The translations under genes and the position numbers were made by a program. Under the pieces are notes generated by a model, which was given only the letters and a program-made list of their open reading frames with translations, was not told the DNA's origin and did not search any database. From Halobacteriovorax sp. HLS (GTDB taxonomy: Bacteria > Bdellovibrionota > Bacteriovoracia > Bacteriovoracales > Bacteriovoracaceae), in the NCBI RefSeq assembly GCF_004006665.1, contig NZ_QOCL01000009.1, positions 310,001 to 374,000 of the forward strand: a DNA stretch of 64,000 nucleotides, given 5' to 3'. Below are positions 42,206 to 59,301 of this stretch, in pieces; within the stretch, counting starts at the first letter, position 1, and each line of letters opens with the position of its first letter.

Positions 42206-43426
42206 ATGAAGATAATTTTCTTAGTAGTTTTTATTAGTATTTATACTTTTAAAACTTATGCTAAATGTAATCTTAAAAACTCAAATGATATCTTGGAGCT
42301 TGTTAAGAAAAATCATCCAAGTATAACTTTTAACAATGTGAAAGGAATGGCCCTTGAGTCTAACATAGAAGTCGCAGGTCAAAGACTTAATCCCGAGTTA
42401 GATGCTGAGAGCACAGTTGGTGACTCAGTAGGAGGTAAAAACTATCGTACTTCTGTTTCTTTAAAGCACACCTTTGAGCTAGGTGGAAAACGTGACTCAA
42501 GGATTAATGTTGCAAGAAATACCTTTAAAACGGGGGTGGCTTTAGCAGAATTTGATAATCAACAAACTATAATTAATACGGTTATTAAACTTCATCGCTT
42601 ACGGCAAGTTTATGAACTTGTTCCTATCTATGAAGAGTCTTTAAGTGCATTCAATAAGATTTTGAAAACGATTAAGGGGAGGATGTCTCTTTCTCCTGAG
42701 CAACAGGTAGAAGCTGAAACTCTAGAGTTAGCAGTAAATGACTATAAACTTAAAATTGCACAGCTTAATTCTGAGAAAATGAACCTGACAACTCATTTAT
42801 CATTCTTTATGGGGGTAGATTGTACTATCCCAAGAAGTGCTCTTCCTGTTTCTATAAATTTAGATGAAAGATTTGAAAGAGACTTAAAAATTGAAAACTA
42901 TTCAAAATTTAAGGCCGCTACGTTTTCTTTGGAAATGGCGAAATCGAACTTAGATTTAGAAAAATCTAATAGTTATCCAGACCTTCAAGTTGGTCCAATT
43001 TATGAATATGAAAAAAATAGTGCTGGTCGAATAGACACTTTTGGTGTTGCGATAACTATGGACTTGCCAATACTTAGTATTAATAGTGGTGGAAGAAAAA
43101 GGGCAACTAATGATGTATTGGCAGCAAGTCTAAATTTGAGAAATATTAAAAAAGAAAGTATGCTTGATGTTCAATCTTGGCTCCAAAAGTACAATCAGTA
43201 TAAAGACTCGTTAAAAACAATCGCTAATAAAGATAAATTAGAAAAAAAACACAGAAAAATTGAATCTCTTTTTAATAGAGGCATTATCTCTACTTCTCTT
43301 GTAATTGAATCGCACAGACAGTTAGTTGAGTTTTTTATTACAAGATTTGAGTTCGAGATTGGGGCAACGGAAGCGCTTTGGAACATATATAAGTTAAATG
43401 GGGAAATAGCGAGTAAAAGTCTTTAA
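42206..43426 (+). CDS. TolC-like outer-membrane factor of heavy-metal efflux
   Basis: The 406-residue protein has a signal peptide ending YAK and the tandem helical repeats of OEP/TolC family proteins, with FELGGKRDSRINVARN near residue 95 and the matching motif DLPILSINSGGRKRATND near 300, a CzcC signature. It would form the trimeric outer-membrane channel for the RND pump encoded downstream. Length is normal. Confidence 0.88.
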   Translation: MKIIFLVVFISIYTFKTYAKCNLKNSNDILELVKKNHPSITFNNVKGMALESNIEVAGQRLNPELDAESTVGDSVGGKNYRTSVSLKHTFELGGKRDSRINVARNTFKTGVALAEFDNQQTIINTVIKLHRLRQVYELVPIYEESLSAFNKILKTIKGRMSLSPEQQVEAETLELAVNDYKLKIAQLNSEKMNLTTHLSFFMGVDCTIPRSALPVSINLDERFERDLKIENYSKFKAATFSLEMAKSNLDLEKSNSYPDLQVGPIYEYEKNSAGRIDTFGVAITMDLPILSINSGGRKRATNDVLAASLNLRNIKKESMLDVQSWLQKYNQYKDSLKTIANKDKLEKKHRKIESLFNRGIISTSLVIESHRQLVEFFITRFEFEIGATEALWNIYKLNGEIASKSL

Positions 43427-43475
43427 ACCCCTGATAAATGAAACAGATTATAATTATTAAAAATAGGAGTTAAAA

Positions 43476-44132
43476 GTGAAATATAAATTAATATTGTCAG
43501 GAATTATAGTTACTACTTTTCTTGGATTTAGTTCTTTTGCAGAAGATGAACATGATCACAGCTCTCATGAAAAAAAAGAAAAGCACTCTACAGAGGATTC
43601 TCATGAGCACAGTGATGGGGATGGTCATAATCATAAGAAAAAGAAGAAAAAAGACTCTCATGCTGGTCACGATGATCATGGGCATAAAGCTCACAATGAA
43701 GATGACGGTCATGAGCATAATAAACATAAAGAAGAAGATGGTCATGATCATGGTTCACACGAAGGGCACGGTGGAGGAAAGGCGATTGGAAAAGGAAAAG
43801 CTATTGAGGAAGTAGATGAAATTAAAGGGTTCAAACTTTCAAGAGAGGCCATTAAGACTTTGGAATTAAAACTTAATACAGTAGATGGTTCTACTTTTAA
43901 GATTTCTAAGAAGACTTTAGTTGCATCCAAAAATAAAAAAGGTGTTTATAGGTTTAGAGCAGGATTTTTTAAGTTTATGCCAGCAGAGATCACAAAAGAG
44001 CTTTCTGATGGCTATCTGGTTGAAGTTAAAGGTGTTGATTTTGGAGATCAGATTGTTGTAAATGGCGTTGGTCTTTTACGAGTAACAGATGTTTATTCAA
44101 CAGATAAATCAGAGTACGGTCATTCACACTAG
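43476..44132 (+). CDS. Short His-rich periplasmic adaptor-like protein (CzcB C-terminal domain only)
   Basis: The 218-residue protein begins at GTG 43476 (AGGAG upstream). It has a signal peptide ending SSFA, then about 80 residues of repeated HD/HEH/GHDH metal-binding sequence, and a C-terminal domain of about 100 residues. That domain (VASKNKKGVYRFRAGFF...GDQIVVNGVGLLRV) resembles the last domain of CzcB/CusB adaptors. The lipoyl and alpha-hairpin parts of normal adaptors (350-500 residues) are absent. Its place between the channel and pump genes supports an adaptor or metal-delivery role. Confidence 0.7.
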   Translation: MKYKLILSGIIVTTFLGFSSFAEDEHDHSSHEKKEKHSTEDSHEHSDGDGHNHKKKKKKDSHAGHDDHGHKAHNEDDGHEHNKHKEEDGHDHGSHEGHGGGKAIGKGKAIEEVDEIKGFKLSREAIKTLELKLNTVDGSTFKISKKTLVASKNKKGVYRFRAGFFKFMPAEITKELSDGYLVEVKGVDFGDQIVVNGVGLLRVTDVYSTDKSEYGHSH

Positions 44133-44140
44133 GAGTTAGC

Positions 44141-47100
44141 ATGATTAATAAAGTTATTGAATTCTCCGTAAATAATCGAATGTTTGTCTTTATGGCAACA
44201 CTCTTGCTCATTGTATTTGGTGCGAAGTCTTTTCAGGAGTTATCTATTGATGCTGTTCCTGATATCACCAATACACAAGTTCAAATAAACACACAGGTGA
44301 AAGGCTTAGTTCCAGAAGAAGTCGAGAGAATGGTAACTTTTCCGATAGAATATTCTATGAATGGAATTCCTGGCGTTGAAACAATTCGTTCAATATCTCG
44401 ATATGGTATTTCTCAAGTTACTGTTATCTTTAAAGAGGATGCTGATATTTTTAGGGCTAGGCAACTGGCATCAGAAAAACTCCAAAACATTGAACTTCCT
44501 GATGGAGTTGTACCAGAAATGGGGCCGATCAGTACTGGACTTGGTGAAATTTTTCACTACTCAATTGAGGCAAAAGAACCTGAAACGGATCCAGAAAAAA
44601 GATTGATTCAGCTTATGGACTTAAGGTCCCTGCAAGATTGGTTTATCAAACCGAGACTTTTAACAGTGAAAGGGGTAACTGAAGTTAATACTATTGGCGG
44701 ATATGAAAAGCAATTTTTTATTCAGCCTAATATAGAAGGAATGACAAAATACGGACTTCACTTTGATGATATTGAGTCAGCAATTGAACAAACTAACCTT
44801 AATGTTGGAGGAGGTTATATTCAGCAAACCGGAGAGCAATTACTAGTTCGAGGCGTTGGTTTGTTAAGTAATATTAAAGATATCGAATCTGTTGTAGTAA
44901 AAAGACTTTCTTCATATCAGGTAATAAAAATTAAAGATATTGCGCAAGTAAAATATGATAAAGAAATTAGAACAGGCGCTGCAACTGTAAATGGGGAAGA
45001 GTCAATCATTGGAACAGCCTTTATGTTACTTGGTGAAAATTCAAGGTCTGTAGCGCAAAGAGTTTCAGGAAAGCTTGATGATATTAAGAAAGACCTTCCT
45101 CCATGGGTAAAGCTTAAGATTCTTTACGATCGTTCAGACATGGTAGACGCTACTCTTAATACAGTAGAGCATAACTTACTAATGGGAGCAGGGTTAGTCA
45201 TTTTATTTTTGTTATTACTTGTTGGAAATATAAGAGCAGCAATAATAACTTCTCTTATGATTCCAATTTCCCTTCTTATGACTTTTATTTTAATGAAATG
45301 GCAAAACGTATCAGGGAATTTGATGAGTTTAGGTGCTCTTGATTTTGGAATCATTGTAGATGGTGCTGTTATTGTTATTGAAAACTGCGTGCATAGACTT
45401 CAAAATAAAGGGAAAGCCCTTGGAAGAGACATGACCAGAGCTGAAGTTAAACAGGTCGTCATAGATTCGGCTATTGAAATTCGATCAGCTGCTGGTTTTG
45501 GTGAATTAATTGTAATTGTTGTTTTTATTCCACTCTTTGCTTTAACGGGAGTTGAGGGGAAAATGTTTGGACCTATGGCCACAACATTTATAATGGCCTT
45601 AGCATCAGCCCTTCTTCTTTCATTTACTGTTGTTCCAGCATTAGCTGCAACTTTCTTAAGTGGAAAAACAAGAGATAAAAAACCATTCTTAATGAGTCTC
45701 GCTGAAAAGGCATTTAGTCCTACACTCAGTATTGCATTAAGGGCAAAAAAGTTTGTTCTCGGTATTGGAATAGCTTCAATTGTAGTGGGTGTATTTTTAT
45801 TCTCACGATTGGGGGCGGAGTTTATTCCTCAACTAGATGAAGGAGATTTTGCGTTACAATTTATCCGCCCTGCCAATATTAGTATGGAGAATTCGGTAAA
45901 ATTGCAGAGACTTTCAGAGAGAATAGTATTGGATTTTCCACAGGTTAAAAATGTTTTTGCAAGAACTGGAGCTGCGGAAGTAGCAACAGATCCGATGGGT
46001 GTGAATATCTCAGACTCATATGTGATGCTTAATAACAAAGAAGAATGGCCGAAAGATAATTCTATTACGGATAAAAAGAGTTTGATGAAAGCGGTTAAAG
46101 ACAAATTAGATTTACATGTCCCTGGGCAAGTAATGTTGATTTCTCAACCAGTCGAACTACGTTTTAATGAACTCTTAGAAGGTACTAGGGCCGATGTGTC
46201 AGCAAAAGTATTTGGTGAGGATTTGGATAAATTAATAGAATACTCCAAAGAGGTTGCTGAAATTGTATCTAGTATTGAAGGAGCAGGAGAAGCTGAGTCT
46301 GAATCTAAAGGGAAGTCGCCTCTACTTCAATATACCCCCAAAATGGATAAACTCGCACAATTGGGAGTTACAGCACGGCCTGTATTAGATGCAATTAGCA
46401 CCGCGATCGGAGGGAGAGAGGTTGGACATGTTTATGATGGAGTACGTAAATATCCTATCGTAACTAGACTTTCTGAAGAGGAACGAAAAGACATTATGAC
46501 AGTTAGAAAATTACCTGTTGGTATTGCTGAAGGTCATACTGTTCCAATTGAACAAGTCGCAGATATTGAATTTGTTGAAACTTTCTCCGCTGTAGGTCGC
46601 GAAAACTCTCAAAGGCGTATTGCTGTACTCATTAACCCTGAGGTGAGAGACATTGAAAGCTTTGTAAATAAAGCTAAGAAAATAGTTGAAGAAAAAGTAA
46701 AGCTTCAAGAGGGCTATTACATCGAATGGGGAGGTAGTTTTAAAAATCTACAAAGTGCCAAAGAAAGATTAGGAGTACTTGTTCCAATGGCCCTCTTAAT
46801 AATTCTTGCGATGCTGTATGCTGCTTTTAAAAACTTCTCACAGGTGGTGTTAATATTTGCATGTGCTCCAATGGCCTTAATCGGTGGTGTTATTGCTTTG
46901 AATGTTATGAATATGCCTTTTAGTATATCTGCTGGAGTTGGTTTCATAGCACTTTGTGGGATTAGTATATTAAATGGAGTTGTCCTTGTAACATATTTCA
47001 ACAGACTTGTTTTAGATGGAAAAAGTCCAGATGATGTAGTTAGAGAAGGTGCTATGACAAGACTTAGACCCGTTTTAATGACTGCCCTGACCGATATCTT

Positions 47101-47278
47101 TGGATTCTTACCAATGATGTTTTCTACTGGACTTGGTGCTGAAGTCCAAAAGCCTCTTGCTACAGTTGTAGTAGGAGGGATCTTGTCTGCGACAGTACTA
47201 ACATTGATTGTATTACCGAGTTTATACAGATTGTTTTTTAAACAAATGCAACCAAATCTATTCAAAGGAGAAATATAA
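44141..47278 (+). CDS. czcA: CzcA-type heavy-metal RND efflux pump
   Basis: The 1045-residue protein has the RND plan of twelve membrane helices and two large periplasmic loops. The helix-4 motif DFGIIVDGAVIVIEN (about 401-415) is the CzcA/CnrA class (divalent Zn, Co, Cd, Ni) rather than the Cu/Ag CusA class. The start VNNRMFVFMATLLLIVFGAKSF and the FIPQLDEGDF segment are also characteristic. AGGAG precedes the ATG; a lipoprotein gene overlaps its stop. It moves metal cations outward using the proton gradient. Confidence 0.95.
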   Translation: MINKVIEFSVNNRMFVFMATLLLIVFGAKSFQELSIDAVPDITNTQVQINTQVKGLVPEEVERMVTFPIEYSMNGIPGVETIRSISRYGISQVTVIFKEDADIFRARQLASEKLQNIELPDGVVPEMGPISTGLGEIFHYSIEAKEPETDPEKRLIQLMDLRSLQDWFIKPRLLTVKGVTEVNTIGGYEKQFFIQPNIEGMTKYGLHFDDIESAIEQTNLNVGGGYIQQTGEQLLVRGVGLLSNIKDIESVVVKRLSSYQVIKIKDIAQVKYDKEIRTGAATVNGEESIIGTAFMLLGENSRSVAQRVSGKLDDIKKDLPPWVKLKILYDRSDMVDATLNTVEHNLLMGAGLVILFLLLLVGNIRAAIITSLMIPISLLMTFILMKWQNVSGNLMSLGALDFGIIVDGAVIVIENCVHRLQNKGKALGRDMTRAEVKQVVIDSAIEIRSAAGFGELIVIVVFIPLFALTGVEGKMFGPMATTFIMALASALLLSFTVVPALAATFLSGKTRDKKPFLMSLAEKAFSPTLSIALRAKKFVLGIGIASIVVGVFLFSRLGAEFIPQLDEGDFALQFIRPANISMENSVKLQRLSERIVLDFPQVKNVFARTGAAEVATDPMGVNISDSYVMLNNKEEWPKDNSITDKKSLMKAVKDKLDLHVPGQVMLISQPVELRFNELLEGTRADVSAKVFGEDLDKLIEYSKEVAEIVSSIEGAGEAESESKGKSPLLQYTPKMDKLAQLGVTARPVLDAISTAIGGREVGHVYDGVRKYPIVTRLSEEERKDIMTVRKLPVGIAEGHTVPIEQVADIEFVETFSAVGRENSQRRIAVLINPEVRDIESFVNKAKKIVEEKVKLQEGYYIEWGGSFKNLQSAKERLGVLVPMALLIILAMLYAAFKNFSQVVLIFACAPMALIGGVIALNVMNMPFSISAGVGFIALCGISILNGVVLVTYFNRLVLDGKSPDDVVREGAMTRLRPVLMTALTDIFGFLPMMFSTGLGAEVQKPLATVVVGGILSATVLTLIVLPSLYRLFFKQMQPNLFKGEI

Positions 47279-47751: not shown

Positions 47752-48450
47752 GTGAATAACAGAATTTATATATTTGAATATTACGCTGTGATTATTTCAG
47801 AATGTCTTAATACTGAAAAACATTCTCATCTTGCCCATCAATTAACATTTTCTTTGAGTGAAGAGCCATTTCAAATCGAGTTTAACGAAGAAATTATTAA
47901 TTCTAAAGTAGTCTTTATTCCTTCCCTAGAGGCGCATAAGTTTGTAAAGAGTTGTTCTTGTTTTCTATCTATTCTGATAGATAATGAATCATTATTTAAT
48001 TTAAACGAATTGAGAACAAAACTTATAGAGCTTGATGTTTTTCCAACCAAAGTTGAAGATGTAAAGCCTTTATTAAAATATCTAGGATTTGAAAGAAATA
48101 TAAACGTGGATTCTCGAATTACTAAGATTAAAGATATTATAGATAGCACTAAGTTTCTAGAGGATATCCGACTTAGCGAGTTGGCAAGAGAGATGTCTTT
48201 ATCTGAAAGTAGATTGTTGCATTTGTTTAAAGAACAGGTAGGAGTTCCGTTTAGGAAGTACATTCTTTGGAAGAAGCTTAGAAGAGCGATATTATCATTT
48301 GCGAATAGTAAAAATAAGAAATTGACAGATATTGCCTTAGATTCAGGGTTTAGTGATTCCGCACATTTATCTAAAGTTATCAAAGCATCTTTTGGCCTTA
48401 CTCCTTCTGAAATCCTGAGCAATAGCCAGTTTATAAAAGATTGTAATTAG
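47752..48450 (+). CDS. AraC-family transcriptional regulator
   Basis: The 232-residue protein begins at GTG 47752. Its C-terminal 100 residues hold the two AraC helix-turn-helix motifs (LSELAREMSLSESRLLHLFKE and LTDIALDSGFSDSAHLSKVIK). The N-terminal cupin-like sensing domain is weakly conserved. It lies between the metal-efflux operon and a transglutaminase-like gene, and may control either; its target is unknown. Confidence 0.85.
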   Translation: MNNRIYIFEYYAVIISECLNTEKHSHLAHQLTFSLSEEPFQIEFNEEIINSKVVFIPSLEAHKFVKSCSCFLSILIDNESLFNLNELRTKLIELDVFPTKVEDVKPLLKYLGFERNINVDSRITKIKDIIDSTKFLEDIRLSELAREMSLSESRLLHLFKEQVGVPFRKYILWKKLRRAILSFANSKNKKLTDIALDSGFSDSAHLSKVIKASFGLTPSEILSNSQFIKDCN

Positions 48451-51266: not shown

Positions 51267-52505
51267 ATGAAGTGCTATATCACAGGTATGGGGGCGATTT
51301 CTCCAATGGGTAAGAGTGTTGATGAAATGTTCGATAAGTACCTAGAGGGATATTGTCCAATTGAAACAATAGATGAATTTAAAAATTTCTATGGTGTAAA
51401 ATCACATATTGGTTCAATTGTTAAAGACCTTGATATTAAATCAATAGACAGAAAAATTAGACGTACTTCATCTAAGATGACTCATATGAGTATATTAGCT
51501 ATGAAAGAGGCCTTAGATCAGGCCGGACTTGATAGTGACATTTTAAATTCTAATAGATCACTTCTATGTACTGGATCGACTACTGGTAGCCCTACTGAAT
51601 ATTATGACTCACATAAGAAAATCATTGAAAATGAATCAGCAAAAGGTCAAAAGTCCACATCAGTCTTTAAATGTATGAGTCATACAAATTCAACAAATAT
51701 GGCCATTAGTATAAACTTTACTGGTGCAGTCCTATCTGCAAACTCAGCGTGTGCTTCTGGTAATCAATCTGTCGTTTTAGCTTCCCAGTTAATTAAGGCG
51801 GGTATTTATGATGTTGCTATTGTTGGTGGTTGTGAAGAAGCTCATAAAACAACTGTTTCAACTTTTGATGCTGCCCACGCTTCTTCTATAAACTATAATG
51901 ATTCTCCCAAAGATTCTTCAAGGCCATTTGATAAGAATAGAGATGGGGTTGTTATATCTGAAGGTGCAGGGATAATCATACTAGAGTCGGAAGAATTTGC
52001 TAAGAAAAGAGGAGCAACGCTACTTGCAGAAGTCGTTGGCGGGGATTACTCGGGAAGCGGTGTACATATGGCACAATCCGATACTTTGTCGATTACTAAT
52101 AATATAAAAAGAACACTGATTAACACGAATACGAACCCATTAGAAGTAGACTTTATAAGTGCTCATGCAACTTCAACAAGACAGGGAGATAATGCTGAAT
52201 CTTGGGGGATTTTTAATGCCTTTGAAAGAGATGTAAGTGTACATAGTTTAAAAGGTTATACTGGGCATACTTTTGCAGCGTCTGGTGCCATTGAAACAGC
52301 AATGTTAGTAAAAATGATGAATACGAATATGATTATTCCAAATCATAACCTTAGTGAAGTTGATCCCGAACTCCCAAATCTAAATTTTGTAAATACTCAA
52401 TCTAAGAATAGAGAATTAAAAACAGTATTAAACTTCAATAGTGGCTTTGGGGGTATCAACTCAAGCTTTATTATGAAAAAGGTAGGATCTGATGAGTCAA
52501 ATTAG
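51267..52505 (+). CDS. Beta-ketoacyl-ACP synthase
   Basis: From ATG 51267 (AAGGG upstream) the protein has 412 residues. The thiolase-fold triad is visible: Cys in NSACASGNQ (about 162), His in SAHATSTRQGD (about 301) and His in GYTGHTFAASGA (about 334). It is a KAS II-type condensing enzyme that extends acyl chains on ACP. The ACP gene overlaps its end by 14 bases. First gene of a seven-to-eight-gene lipid-type operon under a sigma-54 promoter. Confidence 0.94.
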   Translation: MKCYITGMGAISPMGKSVDEMFDKYLEGYCPIETIDEFKNFYGVKSHIGSIVKDLDIKSIDRKIRRTSSKMTHMSILAMKEALDQAGLDSDILNSNRSLLCTGSTTGSPTEYYDSHKKIIENESAKGQKSTSVFKCMSHTNSTNMAISINFTGAVLSANSACASGNQSVVLASQLIKAGIYDVAIVGGCEEAHKTTVSTFDAAHASSINYNDSPKDSSRPFDKNRDGVVISEGAGIIILESEEFAKKRGATLLAEVVGGDYSGSGVHMAQSDTLSITNNIKRTLINTNTNPLEVDFISAHATSTRQGDNAESWGIFNAFERDVSVHSLKGYTGHTFAASGAIETAMLVKMMNTNMIIPNHNLSEVDPELPNLNFVNTQSKNRELKTVLNFNSGFGGINSSFIMKKVGSDESN

Positions 52506-52734
52506 AGAAGAAATTAAAAACATCTTTTGTGAAGAATTTGAGCTAGACGCAAGTGCTCTAACTGACGAGGCACACTTATTTGATGACTTGGAGCTTGATA
52601 GTTTAGATGCTGCCGATATGTTAGTTCTTCTGGAAGAGAAAATTGGGAAAAAAATTAATGGTGAGGACTTTATGCAAGTTCGCCAGTTAAAAGATGTATA
52701 TGAGACGGTAGAGAAAATTATGGAGAATGATTAG
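52492..52734 (+). CDS. Acyl carrier protein
   Basis: The 80-residue acidic protein has the phosphopantetheine site Ser37 in LELDSLDAADML. Length and helix pattern are those of ACP. It overlaps the ketosynthase gene by 14 bases and carries the growing chain for the cluster. Its stop overlaps the convergent dehydratase-like gene by four bases. Confidence 0.95.
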   Translation: MSQIREEIKNIFCEEFELDASALTDEAHLFDDLELDSLDAADMLVLLEEKIGKKINGEDFMQVRQLKDVYETVEKIMEND

Positions 52735-53051
52735 GTCTTTATATTAATTTTAGCTACTATTTCGCCATCAAGTGTCCAGACTATTTTGTAAGGTGATTGA
52801 CTTGTTAGAATTTCGACAGAGACCTTAGACTCTGGAGCAAGTGGTTTTAAAAATTTGGATTTAGATATTTGATATTTTCTTATGTGAATATTTTTTTCTA
52901 GAAGTAATAAGAGGCAAATCTCTATATAAACAACAGCTGGGAGAATTTCTTGTTTAGGAAAGTGCCCATCAAAAAAAGGGATGTCCTTTGAAAGTGAAAA
53001 AGTAAAAGTATTCTCATTGTAAGTTAGATTATCTAAATATTTAATATTCAT
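52731..53051 (-). CDS. FabA/FabZ-like hotdog protein on the opposite strand
   Basis: From ATG 53051 the protein has 106 residues. DIPFFDGHFPKQEILPAVVYIEI contains the dehydratase GHFP histidine and the catalytic Glu of FabZ-type 3-hydroxyacyl-ACP dehydratases. It is shorter than usual (about 140-150) but retains the key residues. It is inverted within an otherwise plus-strand operon, so it is either separately expressed or the product of a local inversion. The longer frame to 53135 overlaps the divergent gene and is rejected. Confidence 0.75.
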   Translation of the reverse strand: MNIKYLDNLTYNENTFTFSLSKDIPFFDGHFPKQEILPAVVYIEICLLLLLEKNIHIRKYQISKSKFLKPLAPESKVSVEILTSQSPYKIVWTLDGEIVAKINIKT

Positions 53052-53080
53052 GACTTTATTATAAAAGATATAAGGAATTA

Positions 53081-53524
53081 ATGAAACAACAAATATCAAC
53101 AATTGATTTAGAGCACTTAATGCCCCATCGTTCAAAAATGATTTGGGTTGATTATGTCGAGTCTGTAAGTGATTTGCAAGGAGAGGTTAGTGTTACTCTT
53201 CAGAAGGACTATCCTTACTTTTTTGAGGATGATCATTTGATGAATAGTTTCTTTCTTGAGTTTATGGCACAAGGTTATGGTTACTTTAGGGCCGCCCAGG
53301 TATTAAACAAAAATCTTGACGGTCTAAATCAAGCAATGATCCCAATGATTAGTCACTATGAGTTTGAAGAGAATAATTATAAAGCAGGAACGAAGTTCAC
53401 TGCAAAACTCACAACCTTGAAAGAATTAGGTGACCTCTTCTTTGTAAAGGGCGAGTGTTTTAATGACGAAGGTAGAGTTATTGCATCTGCTGAGTTTAAA
53501 GTTTACGCAAAGGTTGATCTATGA
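53081..53524 (+). CDS. 3-hydroxyacyl-ACP dehydratase-like (hotdog) protein
   Basis: The 147-residue protein has the FabZ/ApeP-like hotdog pattern: LMPHRSKMIWVDYVESV with the first His near 17, and FFLEFMAQGYGYF with the catalytic Glu and Gln. It probably dehydrates 3-hydroxyacyl-ACP made by the ketoreductase of this operon, as in aryl polyene clusters. AAGG precedes the ATG. It overlaps the next gene as ATGA. Confidence 0.82.
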   Translation: MKQQISTIDLEHLMPHRSKMIWVDYVESVSDLQGEVSVTLQKDYPYFFEDDHLMNSFFLEFMAQGYGYFRAAQVLNKNLDGLNQAMIPMISHYEFEENNYKAGTKFTAKLTTLKELGDLFFVKGECFNDEGRVIASAEFKVYAKVDL

Positions 53525-54309
53525 ATTATTTTGAAATTGCTATCGCAACATTCTTATTTTACAATATTCGCTATCTCTCCTTTGCATATATCTATGATCT
53601 AGTTTGTAGAAACTTTTTTACAAAATTCAAAATTAATCCACAGAGTGCTAAAAAGAGCATGATAAAAAAAGAAATCTTTTGGGGATGTTCTGTTGGGCTA
53701 TCTTATATGCCTTGGATGGTTTTAATGGTTTGGATGTATAGAAATGGTTACACCAAAATATATAGTGATGTAGAGCAATATGGAGTGATCTATTTACTTA
53801 TAAGTACAGTTCTTGTTTTTGTTATTCACGATACTTACTTTTTTTGGTTTCACTATCTGTTTCATAAAAATAATACTTTGAAAAAGTTATCTCAGCACAA
53901 AGTACATCATATGTTTCATAATCCAACGGCCTTTTCGGCATTCGCTACTCACCCTAGTGAATCTTTTATGGAACTTGGTTTTAGGCCATTAATACTGGCA
54001 TTTTTACCTTTACATCCTTATGCCATTGTAGCTTTTCTGATAATTTCATTTATTTTAAATTGTCTTGGCCACTCTGGATATGAACTCTTTCCGAGTGGTT
54101 TTACTAAAAATCCTCTTACTAAATTCACGGGAAACTCAACTCATCATTACATCCATCATACGAAAACAAATTATCACTTTTCGCTGTATTTTACTTGGTG
54201 GGATAAGATAATGGGAACTGAACATCCTGATTATCATGAAATATTTGAGCAACGAGCATCAAAGAACACTATTTCTATTTATCCATTAGGTTTTAAAGTT
54301 GAAAGCTAA
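53521..54309 (+). CDS. Sterol desaturase/fatty-acid hydroxylase superfamily membrane protein
   Basis: The 262-residue protein has four or so membrane helices and the diiron histidine boxes HDTYFFWFHYLFH, HKVHHMFH and THHYIHH of the fatty-acid hydroxylase superfamily. It hydroxylates or desaturates a lipid in the membrane. ATGA overlap with the dehydratase gene upstream and an 11-base overlap downstream place it inside the operon. The substrate is likely the acyl product of the cluster. Confidence 0.88.
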   Translation: MNYFEIAIATFLFYNIRYLSFAYIYDLVCRNFFTKFKINPQSAKKSMIKKEIFWGCSVGLSYMPWMVLMVWMYRNGYTKIYSDVEQYGVIYLLISTVLVFVIHDTYFFWFHYLFHKNNTLKKLSQHKVHHMFHNPTAFSAFATHPSESFMELGFRPLILAFLPLHPYAIVAFLIISFILNCLGHSGYELFPSGFTKNPLTKFTGNSTHHYIHHTKTNYHFSLYFTWWDKIMGTEHPDYHEIFEQRASKNTISIYPLGFKVES

Positions 54310-54955
54310 TACTTCTAATATAGATTTCACTTTTCCTATTACTTATTATTTCGAAAATAAGGGAAAACGTAAGCTTGTTCTACTCCTTCATGGATACCGT
54401 ATGCATGCTAGGAAAGCGCTAATGGACTTTGAACAAATGATTCCAGATGCTTATTCGATCTTAGCGCCTAATGGTTTTTTTCCAATTCCTAAATCGGATA
54501 AGAGTATTTCTAGAATGGGATACTCTTGGTATTTTGAAGATCATAAATCAAATAAATCCATCTTCAGTGTTGAGCAATCTAAGAATGCTCTACTTAGTTT
54601 TATTGAAAGTATGTCTCTTGACTGTGAAATAACTATTGTCGGTTACTCTCAAGGTGCAATTGTTGGTCTTTCACTTGCTAATGAATTAGATAATATTAAA
54701 AAACTTGTGCTTATGTCTGCATGTCCCCTAGCTTCAAAGTATAGTGGAAAAAATAAACTTAATATTCTTGCTTTTCATGGTGAAGATGATGAAGTTATTT
54801 CGTATAATTACGCGAAAGAAGGTTATTCGCAGTTGAGTGATTCTGGGCATAAGGTGGAATTTATTAGTTTCAAAAATACTGGACATAATATTTCATCTCA
54901 ATCTTCTATTTTAAAAAGCAGAATTTATCATTTTTTGGAGAATAATAATGAGTAA
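54299..54955 (+). CDS. Alpha/beta hydrolase (esterase/thioesterase-like)
   Basis: The 218-residue protein begins at TTG 54299, within the end of the hydroxylase gene. It has the alpha/beta hydrolase fold: LLLHGYRMH (oxyanion), nucleophile Ser in VGYSQGA, Asp in HGEDDEV and His in NTGHNIS. It probably releases or transfers the acyl product as a carboxylesterase or thioesterase. Coupled to the FabG-like gene by an eight-base overlap. Confidence 0.85.
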   Translation: MKANTSNIDFTFPITYYFENKGKRKLVLLLHGYRMHARKALMDFEQMIPDAYSILAPNGFFPIPKSDKSISRMGYSWYFEDHKSNKSIFSVEQSKNALLSFIESMSLDCEITIVGYSQGAIVGLSLANELDNIKKLVLMSACPLASKYSGKNKLNILAFHGEDDEVISYNYAKEGYSQLSDSGHKVEFISFKNTGHNISSQSSILKSRIYHFLENNNE

Positions 54956-55679
54956 GTTAGATCATTGGGCATTGGTTACCGGAGCAACTGGTGGAATAGG
55001 ACAGGCCATTGCTAAGACATTAGCTAATAGTGGTTATTCAATTCTTTTGCACTATGGTTCCAATATCAATAAAGCTAACTCACTTAAAAATACTATTGTT
55101 GAATTGGGTGTGTCCTGTGAACTTATACAGTGTGATTTATCAGATCTAAGCTCCCTAGAGGCGTGTTTAAATGACTTATCTATTAAACCAAAAATTATCG
55201 TTAACAACGCAGGGATTACGGTTGACTCTCTTTTTTCAATGATTGAGTTAGATACTTTTGATAAGATAATGAAAGTAAATGCATATGCTCCTTTTTTAAT
55301 TATGAAGTGGGCGGCAAAATATATGAGCAGAGCAAAAGAGGGAAGTATTATTAATATTTCTTCTGTGAGTGGTCAAATAGGTAACCCTGGACAGGCCAGT
55401 TATAGCGCGAGTAAAGCTGCACTTATGACAATGTCTAAAACGCTTGGAAAAGAGCTAGCAAGAAAAAAAGTTCGTGTTAATTCAATTGCAGCAGGAATAA
55501 TTGATACTGAAATGAGTGAGAAAATTCCTAAACTTGATGAGATTATTGAGCATATTCCTGCTAGAAGACTAGGCAACGCTCAAGAGATTGCTGATGTTGT
55601 TGAGTTTCTCGCAAGTTCTAAATCGACTTATATTACAGGACAAATATTAAGTGTTAACGGTGGTCTCTACACTCCATGA
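54948..55679 (+). CDS. FabG-type 3-oxoacyl-ACP reductase (SDR)
   Basis: The 243-residue short-chain dehydrogenase has the NAD(P) loop VTGATGGIG (9-17), NNAG, catalytic Ser in NISSVSG and YxxxK in YSASKAA, ending in LSVNGGLYTP. It reduces the keto-acyl-ACP formed by the ketosynthase of this operon. ATGA-type coupling to the following oxidoreductase gene. Confidence 0.93.
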   Translation: MSKLDHWALVTGATGGIGQAIAKTLANSGYSILLHYGSNINKANSLKNTIVELGVSCELIQCDLSDLSSLEACLNDLSIKPKIIVNNAGITVDSLFSMIELDTFDKIMKVNAYAPFLIMKWAAKYMSRAKEGSIINISSVSGQIGNPGQASYSASKAALMTMSKTLGKELARKKVRVNSIAAGIIDTEMSEKIPKLDEIIEHIPARRLGNAQEIADVVEFLASSKSTYITGQILSVNGGLYTP

Positions 55680-57196
55680 AAAATTATGACGCTGTCATCA
55701 TTGGGGCCGGAATATCTGGTCTAACAAGTTCAATACTTCTTGCTCGAGAGGGGATGAGTGTTGCTATTGTGGAAAAGCATTCTAGAGTTGGTGGCTACTT
55801 ACATTCATTTAAAAGGTTTGGTATTGAGTTCGACACCGGAGGTCACTATATTGGTGCAATGGAAAAAGGGGGGGCTTTTAGGACTTTACTAGAATATTTA
55901 AATGTTTATGTTCCAGAGCATTACCGACCAATGGCACAAAGTAAATTCGATCGTTTCGTCATTAAAGGAAAGGAATACTCCTTTTCTCAAGGTTACGACA
56001 AATGCATTAAAGACCTTACAGAACATTTTCCACATGAATCAGAAGGAATAAAGCAATACTTTGAAAAGCTACTCTATGTTGCGAAGCTCATGCCTAGTTC
56101 TAATTTTAAATTAAATGAGAGAACAACCGAGGTTTTTAAGTGGATGGAAACTTCTTTGAAGGATACGGTTGAGAGTTATATAGAAGATTCTCAACTTCAA
56201 GACGTTCTATATAGCTACTGTACATTACACGGAGTCTCACCAAAAGACGTGGCGTTTGCTCCACATGCTGTAATTACTGATACCTTAATTCAAGGCCCCT
56301 ACACATTTCAAAACTCAGGAGACGACCTCGCTAAGAGCTTTAAAGAAGAGTGTTCCAAACTTGGAGTTGATTTTTTTCTAGGTGAGGAACTCTTAGAGAT
56401 GAATGTTATTGATTCTGAGATTAAAAAACTTAAGACAACTTCCTTCGAGTTTTGTTGTAAATATGTTATTTCTTCAATGCATCCTAAAATGACTTTTGCT
56501 CGTCTTGATCATGACCCCACTCGGAGGGTCTTCAAAGATAGGCTTCTTAAAATGAAAGAGTCTAAAAGCTTTGTTGCAGCATATATTCGACTAAAGAGTA
56601 AAACAAAATTCGATCCGGATACTAACTACTACTTCTTCAAAAAGAATATTAGTAATTTATTTGATGATGCAAATCCATTAGATCCAAATTTCTTATATCT
56701 CTGTAGGCCTGGCCGATCTAATGAAGAGAATTATAATCTTAAACATTCTTTTATAACTGTTCATATTCCTTGTGACTATAGTTATGTGAGTGGATGGAAG
56801 GATTCTACATTCGGAAAAAGATCAGAATCTTACAAAGCATTTAAGGAAAAACTAAAAGAAGTTATAAAGATTGAGCTTATTAAAATAGATGATTCTTTTA
56901 AAACTAATATTGATAAAATTGAAATAAGTACGCCTTTAACTAATATTCATTATAATGGTTCTTTAGAGGGAAGTGCTTATGGAATTTATCATTCCATTTC
57001 AAATACTGGCTTAAAAGGACTTTCACCTAAAACAAAAATTAAAAACCTTTTCCTAACCGGACAAAATATTTCTTTCCCTGGGCTTCAATCTAGCTGTAGT
57101 GCAGGCGTACGTTCTGTAAGTGCTTTATTAAGAACTGAAAAATTTGATGAAGATTTAAGGCGTATGAGTTCACAAAATCGGAAAAATGATGACTAG
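55676..57196 (+). CDS. CrtI/RetSat-like FAD-dependent oxidoreductase
   Basis: The 506-residue protein starts with a dinucleotide loop DAVIIGAGISGLTSSILLAREG and VEKHSRVGGYLHSF, the phytoene-desaturase/carotenoid-isomerase pattern, and ends with the FLTGQNISFPG...GVRSVSALL motif. Related enzymes are CrtISO and RetSat, which isomerise or saturate polyene double bonds. In this operon it may modify a polyene or unsaturated chain. Four-base overlap with the FabG gene. Confidence 0.85.
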   Translation: MKNYDAVIIGAGISGLTSSILLAREGMSVAIVEKHSRVGGYLHSFKRFGIEFDTGGHYIGAMEKGGAFRTLLEYLNVYVPEHYRPMAQSKFDRFVIKGKEYSFSQGYDKCIKDLTEHFPHESEGIKQYFEKLLYVAKLMPSSNFKLNERTTEVFKWMETSLKDTVESYIEDSQLQDVLYSYCTLHGVSPKDVAFAPHAVITDTLIQGPYTFQNSGDDLAKSFKEECSKLGVDFFLGEELLEMNVIDSEIKKLKTTSFEFCCKYVISSMHPKMTFARLDHDPTRRVFKDRLLKMKESKSFVAAYIRLKSKTKFDPDTNYYFFKKNISNLFDDANPLDPNFLYLCRPGRSNEENYNLKHSFITVHIPCDYSYVSGWKDSTFGKRSESYKAFKEKLKEVIKIELIKIDDSFKTNIDKIEISTPLTNIHYNGSLEGSAYGIYHSISNTGLKGLSPKTKIKNLFLTGQNISFPGLQSSCSAGVRSVSALLRTEKFDEDLRRMSSQNRKNDD

Positions 57197-58070
57197 ATTA
57201 GTTAGACATTACTGTTTCGAAATAATAGTACTGCTAGCTATTTCTGTATTATTTGTAGCTTTTGTATCGAATGGTATTGTTACTACTGATCAACTATATG
57301 CCTCATGGTTTATGCCCTTTGTAGGAATACTGGCCGCTACGATCGCAATGTCTACTCCGGCAGGGGGAGGAATCGTTTTCTTTCCAATAATGATTTTACT
57401 AGGGATAGCTCCACTGCAGGCCGTAGGCTTCTCATTAGGGGCCCAGTCTGTAGGAATGGGGATCTTTGGAACTTATAATTGGTTCAAAACTGACAGGGCT
57501 GCAATCGTATCGCCAATTGTAGCTATTGTTGTTCCTATCGCAATTGCCGCGAGTCTTGTTACTATCCTTATTTTTCCTGCGTCTAAGTCCTCTTACTTGC
57601 AAGTTGGTTTTAGTTGTTTCGGTATTTTTCTTGCGGGCTACATATACAAGCATTTGGATATTGATAAGAGTACGAGTCGTAGAGATATTATTCTCAATAA
57701 GTCATTGGTACTGTCGCTTGTTGGAGTAGGATTAGCAGGGGGGGCAATTGTTGGATATATTGGAATTGGAGTCGATACTTTACTCTTTTTTGTCTTAACA
57801 TTCTTTTTTAAAATAGATTCTCATAAGGCAACTGTTACTAGTATTGTCACTATGGGGATTACAGCAATGGTTCCATTTTTTGTTCATTTACTAATTATCA
57901 AAAATGTTCCACTACATCTTTGGTTAATGGTTTTACCAGGAATATTTCTAGGAGCTAGGCTTGGCCCTTGGATTAATATGAGATTAGGTCAGCGTCGTAT
58001 TTTGAGTATATTTGCGACTATATTAGTCATTGAATTCTTAATGACTATTTCTAGGTTTTTCTTTTCTTAA
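57186..58070 (+). CDS. TauE/SafE-family membrane exporter
   Basis: The 294-residue protein has about eight membrane helices with the TauE/SafE repeats (MSTPAGGGIVFFPIMILLGIAPLQAVGFSLG and the second VGYIGIGVDTLLFFVLT). Family members move sulfite, sulfonates or small organic acids. It overlaps the CrtI-like gene by 11 bases, so it is co-expressed with the lipid cluster. The first two codons are both ATG, so the exact start is open by three bases. Confidence 0.85.
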   Translation: MMTRLVRHYCFEIIVLLAISVLFVAFVSNGIVTTDQLYASWFMPFVGILAATIAMSTPAGGGIVFFPIMILLGIAPLQAVGFSLGAQSVGMGIFGTYNWFKTDRAAIVSPIVAIVVPIAIAASLVTILIFPASKSSYLQVGFSCFGIFLAGYIYKHLDIDKSTSRRDIILNKSLVLSLVGVGLAGGAIVGYIGIGVDTLLFFVLTFFFKIDSHKATVTSIVTMGITAMVPFFVHLLIIKNVPLHLWLMVLPGIFLGARLGPWINMRLGQRRILSIFATILVIEFLMTISRFFFS

Positions 58071-58578: not shown

Positions 58579-59301
58579 ATGAGCTTTATGCTTCTAATAA
58601 GCGTTCTTATTATTTTTTCGACTATTCAATCTGTTTTGGGGGTCGGTCTATTGGTATTTGGTACTCCAACTTTGCTTATTATGGGATTCTCTTTCGAAGA
58701 AACTCTCAGTATCGTATTACCAGCATCAATCTGTATTAGTTTACTACAGGTCATAGAACCTCAAAAATCGGGAAAATCTTTTCGCAAAGAGTTTAATCTC
58801 TTCTGTCTGCCTTTTGTGTTCTTGGGTGTTTACTATGTCCTTCTTAACGAAAAAAATATTGACTTAAGTATCTATGTTGGTGGAATGCTTTTTATAAGTG
58901 GTGCTATCAGACTATCTTCAAAGCTTACTACCATTCTTTCAAGCTTTATTTTTCAATATCGAAAATTGTACCAAGTGATCTTAGGTTTAGTGCACGGGCT
59001 TACTAATATGGGGGGAGGCTTGTTAACTCTATTCTCTTCTTCCATCCATAGTGGAGATAAGAATTCGACTAGGGCAGGGGTTGCTTACGGTTATTTACTA
59101 ATGGGTGTTATCCAGTATGGAATGCTTCTATTTTTTCATCCTGAGTTTATATCAATTAAGATTGTTCTTTATGTTCTTATCGCAGCAGTTTCATATCTTT
59201 TATTTGGAAAGCGTTTATATGTTAATACGCAAGAAAAGTTATTCCATAACTCGGTCACAGCGATCATTCTTTTCTACGGTTGCGTTTTGATCTTTCGTTA
59301 G
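58579..59301 (+). CDS. TauE/SafE-like membrane protein
   Basis: The 240-residue protein has about seven or eight membrane helices and glycine-rich repeats (IQSVLGVGLLVFGTPTLLIMG and VHGLTNMGGGLLTLFSS) that match TauE/SafE topology. It is shorter than the one at 57186 and is a separate gene with AAGGA before the ATG. Substrate unknown. Confidence 0.75.
   Translation: MSFMLLISVLIIFSTIQSVLGVGLLVFGTPTLLIMGFSFEETLSIVLPASICISLLQVIEPQKSGKSFRKEFNLFCLPFVFLGVYYVLLNEKNIDLSIYVGGMLFISGAIRLSSKLTTILSSFIFQYRKLYQVILGLVHGLTNMGGGLLTLFSSSIHSGDKNSTRAGVAYGYLLMGVIQYGMLLFFHPEFISIKIVLYVLIAAVSYLLFGKRLYVNTQEKLFHNSVTAIILFYGCVLIFR

Follow-up and report, generated by a model that had tools for sequence, protein, structure and literature searches.

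What is made by the nine genes at positions 51267–58070 of the window (the whole analysed stretch of 64,000 nucleotides, part of contig 9 in the 3.84-Mb genome of Halobacteriovorax sp. HLS)? The source bacterium is marine and probably has a predatory lifestyle. Judging from sequence, we hold it just about probable that this operon represents a reduced, non-aryl branch of the flexirubin/aryl polyene (APE) clusters, making a short, hydroxylated polyene acid. Its core is, by profile and tree, descended from flexirubin/APE clusters. Two losses point the same way: that of two aryl-contacting residues in the ketosynthase (KS), and that of the genes for the aromatic starter. The genes, including those for the acyl carrier protein (ACP) and the ketoreductase (KR), are as follows.

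51267–52505, plus strand: ApeR-type (homodimeric FabB-like) beta-ketoacyl-ACP synthase (the KS); Ser118/Val135 in the numbering of Acinetobacter baumannii ApeR (AbApeR), Cys-His-His kept
52492–52734, plus strand: acyl carrier protein, ApeF-like; DSL phosphopantetheine motif
52731–53051, minus strand: ApeI-type hotdog dehydratase half; GHFP motif; inverted within the operon
53081–53524, plus strand: ApeP-type hotdog dehydratase half
53521–54309, plus strand: membrane diiron fatty-acid hydroxylase/sterol desaturase family; HYLFH, HKVHH, HHYIHH
54299–54955, plus strand: alpha/beta serine hydrolase, possible thioesterase; GYSQG motif
54948–55679, plus strand: FabG/ApeQ/FlxB-type ketoreductase
55676–57196, plus strand: CrtI-like FAD oxidoreductase, flexirubin-cluster clade
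57186–58070, plus strand: TauE/SafE-family membrane permease, possible exporter

All nine frames are open and intact, and catalytic motifs are present in the KS, ACP, KR, hydrolase and hydroxylase. The eight plus-strand genes are spaced by -14, +346, -4, -11, -8, -4 and -11 bases in order; they overlap by 4–14 bases throughout, save for the single 346-base gap between the ACP gene and the ApeP-type hotdog gene. This run is operon-like, well past chance expectation. A preliminary description of the locus had named the same nine proteins, and profile matches confirm all of them in place and family: KS, PF00109/PF02801; ACP, PF00550; hydroxylase, PF04116; permease, TauE (PF01925); hydrolase, Abhydrolase_2; KR, FabG-type short-chain dehydrogenase; flavoenzyme, CrtI family. 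The hotdog proteins match PF07977 right at the cut-off and a PF22817-like model under it. That description also called the genes nearly all overlapping, which holds for the eight plus-strand genes with their one gap, but it missed that the gene filling this gap (52731–53051) lies on the minus strand. There is no enoyl reductase within the operon. Promoter and terminator scans gave a signal no richer than in shuffled sequences.

The core proteins resemble those of pigment clusters one by one. The best solved structures for the KS are 7f27 (E 8.6e-68) and 4ewg, the latter described as an ApeR protein (PMC8358021). A structure of A. baumannii ApeR has been reported, and ApeR is the homodimeric KS of APE clusters (PMC8358021). 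The KS shares 33% identity with E. coli ApeR but 24% with ApeO, and in the KS tree it joins the Bdellovibrionota ApeR-type group (support 93/99). For the ACP, identity with E. coli ApeF is 45%. Both hotdog proteins were classed with profiles built from relatives' sequences: the family of the minus-strand protein has 3esi and ApeI (6qsr_A, 1e-14) as best structures, that of the plus-strand protein ApeP (6qsr_B, E 7.6e-12). In the known system, ApeI pairs with ApeP, and the resulting dehydratase heterodimer has a single active site (PMC8041823). Among the references compared, the KR is closest to ApeQ and the KR of a Persicobacter cluster. The type II core of flexirubin/APE clusters (KS, ACP, KR, ApeI/ApeP-type halves) is present in full, and the APE-like extension logic proposed earlier is borne out by these matches and by the KS and CrtI trees.

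The flavoenzyme falls within a Bdellovibrionota group (support 99/98), with a Bacteroidota pair outside. We sampled 369 genomes of the phylum and plasmid records. The flavoenzyme had 17 matches below E 1e-60 in the 369 genomes besides that in the window; the neighborhoods of these and of some weaker matches were inspected. The relatives share a core of KR-CrtI-KS-ACP-[inverted ApeI-type gene]. Clusters not cut by a contig end (genome G147 excepted) have KR-CrtI-KS-ACP with a second KS-like gene, an aromatic amino acid lyase, an AMP ligase, a GT2-acyltransferase fusion and an acyltransferase; most also have a halogenase-like flavoprotein, an ApeP-type hotdog, a C45-type acyltransferase and LolA- and RND-like genes. 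Where inspected, they carry a second ACP with an ApeO-like KS and a protein resembling a chain-length factor (CLF), a 236-aa neighbor of that KS with a weak, sub-cut-off PF13723 match. The KS-like gene that follows the inverted hotdog gene in relatives does not count as a CLF gene, since it retains Cys-His-His. For the KR of G002, the FlxB flexirubin model scores best, yet under its cut-off. On plasmids of Bacteroidota (Persicobacter, Aureispira), the flavoenzyme gene occurs in settings like those of flexirubin-type clusters, and an ApeP-type query found no match among plasmid records. A flavoenzyme scan of genome contigs gave six matches, covering only the N-terminal FAD-motif region, and no cluster in the three neighborhoods inspected.

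Compared with flexirubin clusters (flx of Chitinophaga pinensis, PMC3992019; those of Bdellovibrionota and Persicobacter), the operon shares the FlxB-type KR, ApeR-type KS, ACP, two dehydratase halves and CrtI-like flavoenzyme, and with those of Bdellovibrionota also the inverted ApeI-type gene. It lacks, however, the aromatic lyase/ligase starter, extra KSs, CLF, GT-acyltransferase, LolA and RND, and it adds the hydroxylase, serine hydrolase and TauE permease. With the APE clusters of E. coli and Acinetobacter (PMC8253772, PMC8358021), it shares homologs of ApeR, ApeF, ApeI, ApeP and ApeQ; it lacks ApeH, ApeO, ApeC, ApeK, ApeD, ApeJ and ApeL-N, and its ApeI-type gene is inverted. Its core belongs to the flexirubin/APE superfamily, but no characterized cluster with this gene set or known product was found here. 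The preliminary description proposed to look for the same cluster in relatives: related flexirubin-type clusters occur in the phylum, but the exact set was not found again in the 369 genomes and the plasmid records.

The KS departs from this family at the residues that touch the aryl group. The published AbApeR residues Phe118, Tyr135 and Phe202 (PMC8358021) fit the numbering of the 7f27 chain exactly. At the first two positions, E. coli ApeR agrees with AbApeR (Phe118, Tyr135), whereas the window KS carries Ser118 and Val135. In ungapped alignment stretches, position 135 is Phe in all 15 Bdellovibrionota relatives, and position 118 is Tyr or Phe in 13 of them and His in two. Only the third aryl-contact residue, at 202, is kept. 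A similar pair, Ser and Ile, occupies positions 118 and 135 in the FabF of this genome.

This resemblance to FabF fits an unlikely but viable alternative, in which the product is not a conjugated polyene but an unusual fatty acid of the membrane, either non-conjugated unsaturated or hydroxylated, formed with the help of a housekeeping enoyl reductase. KS, KR and hotdog proteins are homologous to enzymes of fatty acid synthesis as well, and the operon has a fatty-acid hydroxylase and a hydrolase. However, KS, ACP, KR, both hotdogs and CrtI are all nearer to polyene-cluster than to fatty acid synthesis proteins, and the operon has no acyltransferase that could place the acid in a lipid.

The preliminary description had noted that AMP ligase, acyltransferase and glycosyltransferase are lacking. 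We agree: the starter and attachment enzymes are missing from the operon, and for the cluster-type ligase and the GT2-acyltransferase fusion this extends to the whole genome. The AMP ligase from a relative's cluster found no match genome-wide, a search that leaves generic AMP ligases aside; the same protein, as a control, finds its counterparts in relatives' clusters. There is no GT2-acyltransferase fusion genome-wide, where GT2 matches are distant only, and no relative of the CLF-like protein. The only full KS genes in the genome besides that of the operon are a fabF and one beside Ole genes, and there is no KS with chain-length factor of the ApeO-ApeC type. An aromatic starter module was not found (chorismatase/UbiC was not looked for). 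Outer-membrane attachment and export genes (GT/acyltransferase, RND, LolA) are absent from the operon; LolA and exporter were not searched genome-wide. The genome has one aromatic lyase, on another contig; its neighbors would fit a candidate histidine-degradation operon, by gene sizes alone.

It is very unlikely that an aryl polyene is still made with an aromatic starter activated by enzymes encoded elsewhere. The core is kin to flexirubin-type clusters, Phe202 is kept, and there is that single lyase. Against this stand the Ser and Val at aryl contacts 118 and 135, the lack of any relative of the cluster AMP ligase (generic AMP ligases aside), and a genome devoid of the GT-acyltransferase fusion, a second cluster KS and the CLF-like protein.

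Three genes are true additions when set against the relatives' clusters: those for hydroxylase, alpha/beta hydrolase and TauE permease. The hydroxylase had already been singled out as an addition, rightly, but so had the flavoenzyme, which is a regular component of the phylum's flexirubin-type clusters and of those settings on Bacteroidota plasmids. For the serine hydrolase and the permease, no counterpart was seen in relatives' clusters. In a tree of 11 hydroxylase sequences, that of the window forms a clade with two homologs from genus g8 (genomes G011 and G147; support 100/99). In G147, the hydroxylase gene is about 4.5 kb from CrtI-KS-ACP genes; in G011, it is about 5 kb from a CrtI gene interrupted by the contig end. 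The KS and CrtI proteins of g8 are placed elsewhere in the tree than those of the window, so that the hydroxylase association is present in two lineages. None of the remaining hydroxylase homologs in the taxonomic family adjoins polyene genes, and a plasmid search with the hydroxylase returned sterol-desaturase genes in unrelated settings (three records inspected).

The g8 genes belong to a different compact locus (L092 on contig 24 of G147, L042 on contig 22 of G011). It encodes the related hydroxylase, a DUF4442 protein, a membrane protein, an unknown 487-aa protein, an acyltransferase and a CrtI-like enzyme; in G147, an ApeR-type KS and an ACP are additionally present.

The KS and CrtI of the window are on long branches without a close sister, which indicates that the operon is an old or fast-evolving offshoot. 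These branches and the many missing cluster genes could also be taken as signs of a functionless, decaying remnant of a flexirubin-type cluster. We regard this as highly improbable: the nine frames are open, the overlaps tight and the catalytic residues intact, and new genes have been gained in addition to the losses.

Tailoring of a carotenoid or other terpenoid, to which a CrtI-family flavoenzyme and a PF04116-superfamily hydroxylase could be suited, has hardly any chance and was dropped, as phytoene/squalene synthase (PF00494) is absent from this genome and two congeners (the control search was positive in 7 of 14 genomes) and the flavoenzyme belongs to the clade of flexirubin-type clusters. 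With no such synthase, a home-made carotenoid is an unlikely substrate for the flavoenzyme. A polyunsaturated fatty acid synthase was also considered and dropped: every protein is discrete, there is no PfaA-D megasynthase, and the PfaA model matches the KS weakly.

For the reduced, non-aryl polyene operon, we thus propose the following scheme. The ApeR-type KS would extend an acyl primer from ordinary fatty-acid metabolism with malonyl units on the operon's ACP. In each round, the keto group would be reduced by the FlxB/ApeQ-type KR, and water would be removed by the ApeI-ApeP-type pair. Conjugated double bonds would build up because the operon has no enoyl reductase. The chain would stay short, with perhaps three to four double bonds, because the ApeR-type KS acts alone and not in a KS/chain-length-factor pair. 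ApeR by itself makes mostly short polyenes, of up to four double bonds (PMC8358021). A short polyene is likewise expected from a homodimeric KS without chain-length factor in the alterochromide type, which has no KS-CLF (PMC8358021; compared by description only). The CrtI-like flavoenzyme may then oxidize, reduce or isomerize the polyene, the membrane hydroxylase would add a hydroxyl group, and the serine hydrolase would release the acid from the ACP, possibly followed by export through the TauE-type permease. Primer, step order, product and transport are what we infer here from the enzyme classes, their kinship and the gene losses. The hydroxylated unsaturated product suggested in the preliminary description appears reasonable.

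Several points weigh against this scheme. The KS retains Phe202, which is common to all KSs compared, and has Tyr115 and Tyr116 near position 118. In the Persicobacter flexirubin-type KS, position 135 is Leu and position 118 falls in a gap; the aryl-contact rule is hence valid within the Bdellovibrionota clade and is not universal. The KS of G147, although encoded near a related hydroxylase, keeps the aromatic residues; the hydroxylase is thus no marker of a non-aryl pathway. The full set of nine genes was not encountered again in the 369 genomes and the plasmid records. Finally, a housekeeping enoyl reductase could act on the chain.

A further feature is the inversion of the ApeI-type gene. 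In the window, it is tail-to-tail with the ACP gene (4-base overlap at the ACP stop) and head-to-head with the ApeP-type gene, with starts 29 bases apart. It opposes its downstream neighbor in all 14 loci that have it, i.e. the window and 13 relatives (L037, L038, L039, L040, L083, L085, L088-L091, L093-L095; eight families), and in 12 of the 14 it separates the ACP gene from the next gene. Its end overlaps that of the ACP gene by 4–46 bases in 10 of the 11 loci measured; in the remaining one, the two ends are 2 bases apart. The distance between its start and the next start is 23–50 bases in 9 of 9 (in two more, the next start is uncertain). In G315 and G324, the gene is relocated, still facing an ApeP-type or second KS gene. 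The gene faced varies: ApeP-type gene, second KS or aromatic lyase. The relatives' ApeI-type proteins that were aligned are 19–27% identical to that of the window. No ApeI-type gene was found in the inspected stretches of G267 and G316.

In E. coli, the ape genes all have one direction (PMC8253772). An opposite-strand gene inside a same-strand run, as found here, resembles the arrangement of a noncontiguous operon. The men operon of S. aureus (PMC7154746) similarly has one oppositely oriented gene; in the window, however, the inverted gene encodes half of a presumed dehydratase of the same pathway. Common descent or antisense control are the only explanations that we can offer, and common descent alone suffices to account for the arrangement. 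The fuller picture, in which flexirubin machinery, re-purposed once its aromatic starter module and aryl-contact residues were lost, makes a new class of short, non-aryl, hydroxylated polyene acids and the inverted gene exerts antisense control on the ACP and the dehydratase partner, is decidedly unlikely.

Some neighboring and related loci deserve mention. After the operon, 58579–59301 encodes a second small membrane protein, TauE-like by eye, with no significant TauE match. Upstream, 42206–47278 holds genes for an AcrB-type RND pump and an outer-membrane efflux protein, and at 47752 comes what by eye is a regulator of the AraC type; these three show no sign of membership in the polyene operon. 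Of four congeners, a single one has a full-length counterpart of the flanking histidine kinase, which left no way to draw an empty site. On contig 3 of G000 (about 162000–187000; L046, L047), OleA/B/C/D-like genes lie beside a separate KS, ACP and CrtI-like gene, and about 12 kb away are a second CrtI-like gene, a KR, a FabZ-like hotdog and a FabI-like reductase. This locus resembles a type II synthase that supplies the synthesis of unsaturated hydrocarbons. Many genomes of the family have pairs of CrtI-like genes at comparable distances.

If the non-aryl reading of the operon is true, a widespread pigment pathway can dispense with its aromatic head and turn into one for a different polyene; two KS positions (118 and 135) are named as a testable switch of primer choice. 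The hydroxylase and the CrtI-like enzyme are set beside an elongation core that is compact enough for reconstitution. The inverted dehydratase gene is a regular, deep feature of these clusters, through which antisense control of a biosynthetic operon becomes directly testable.

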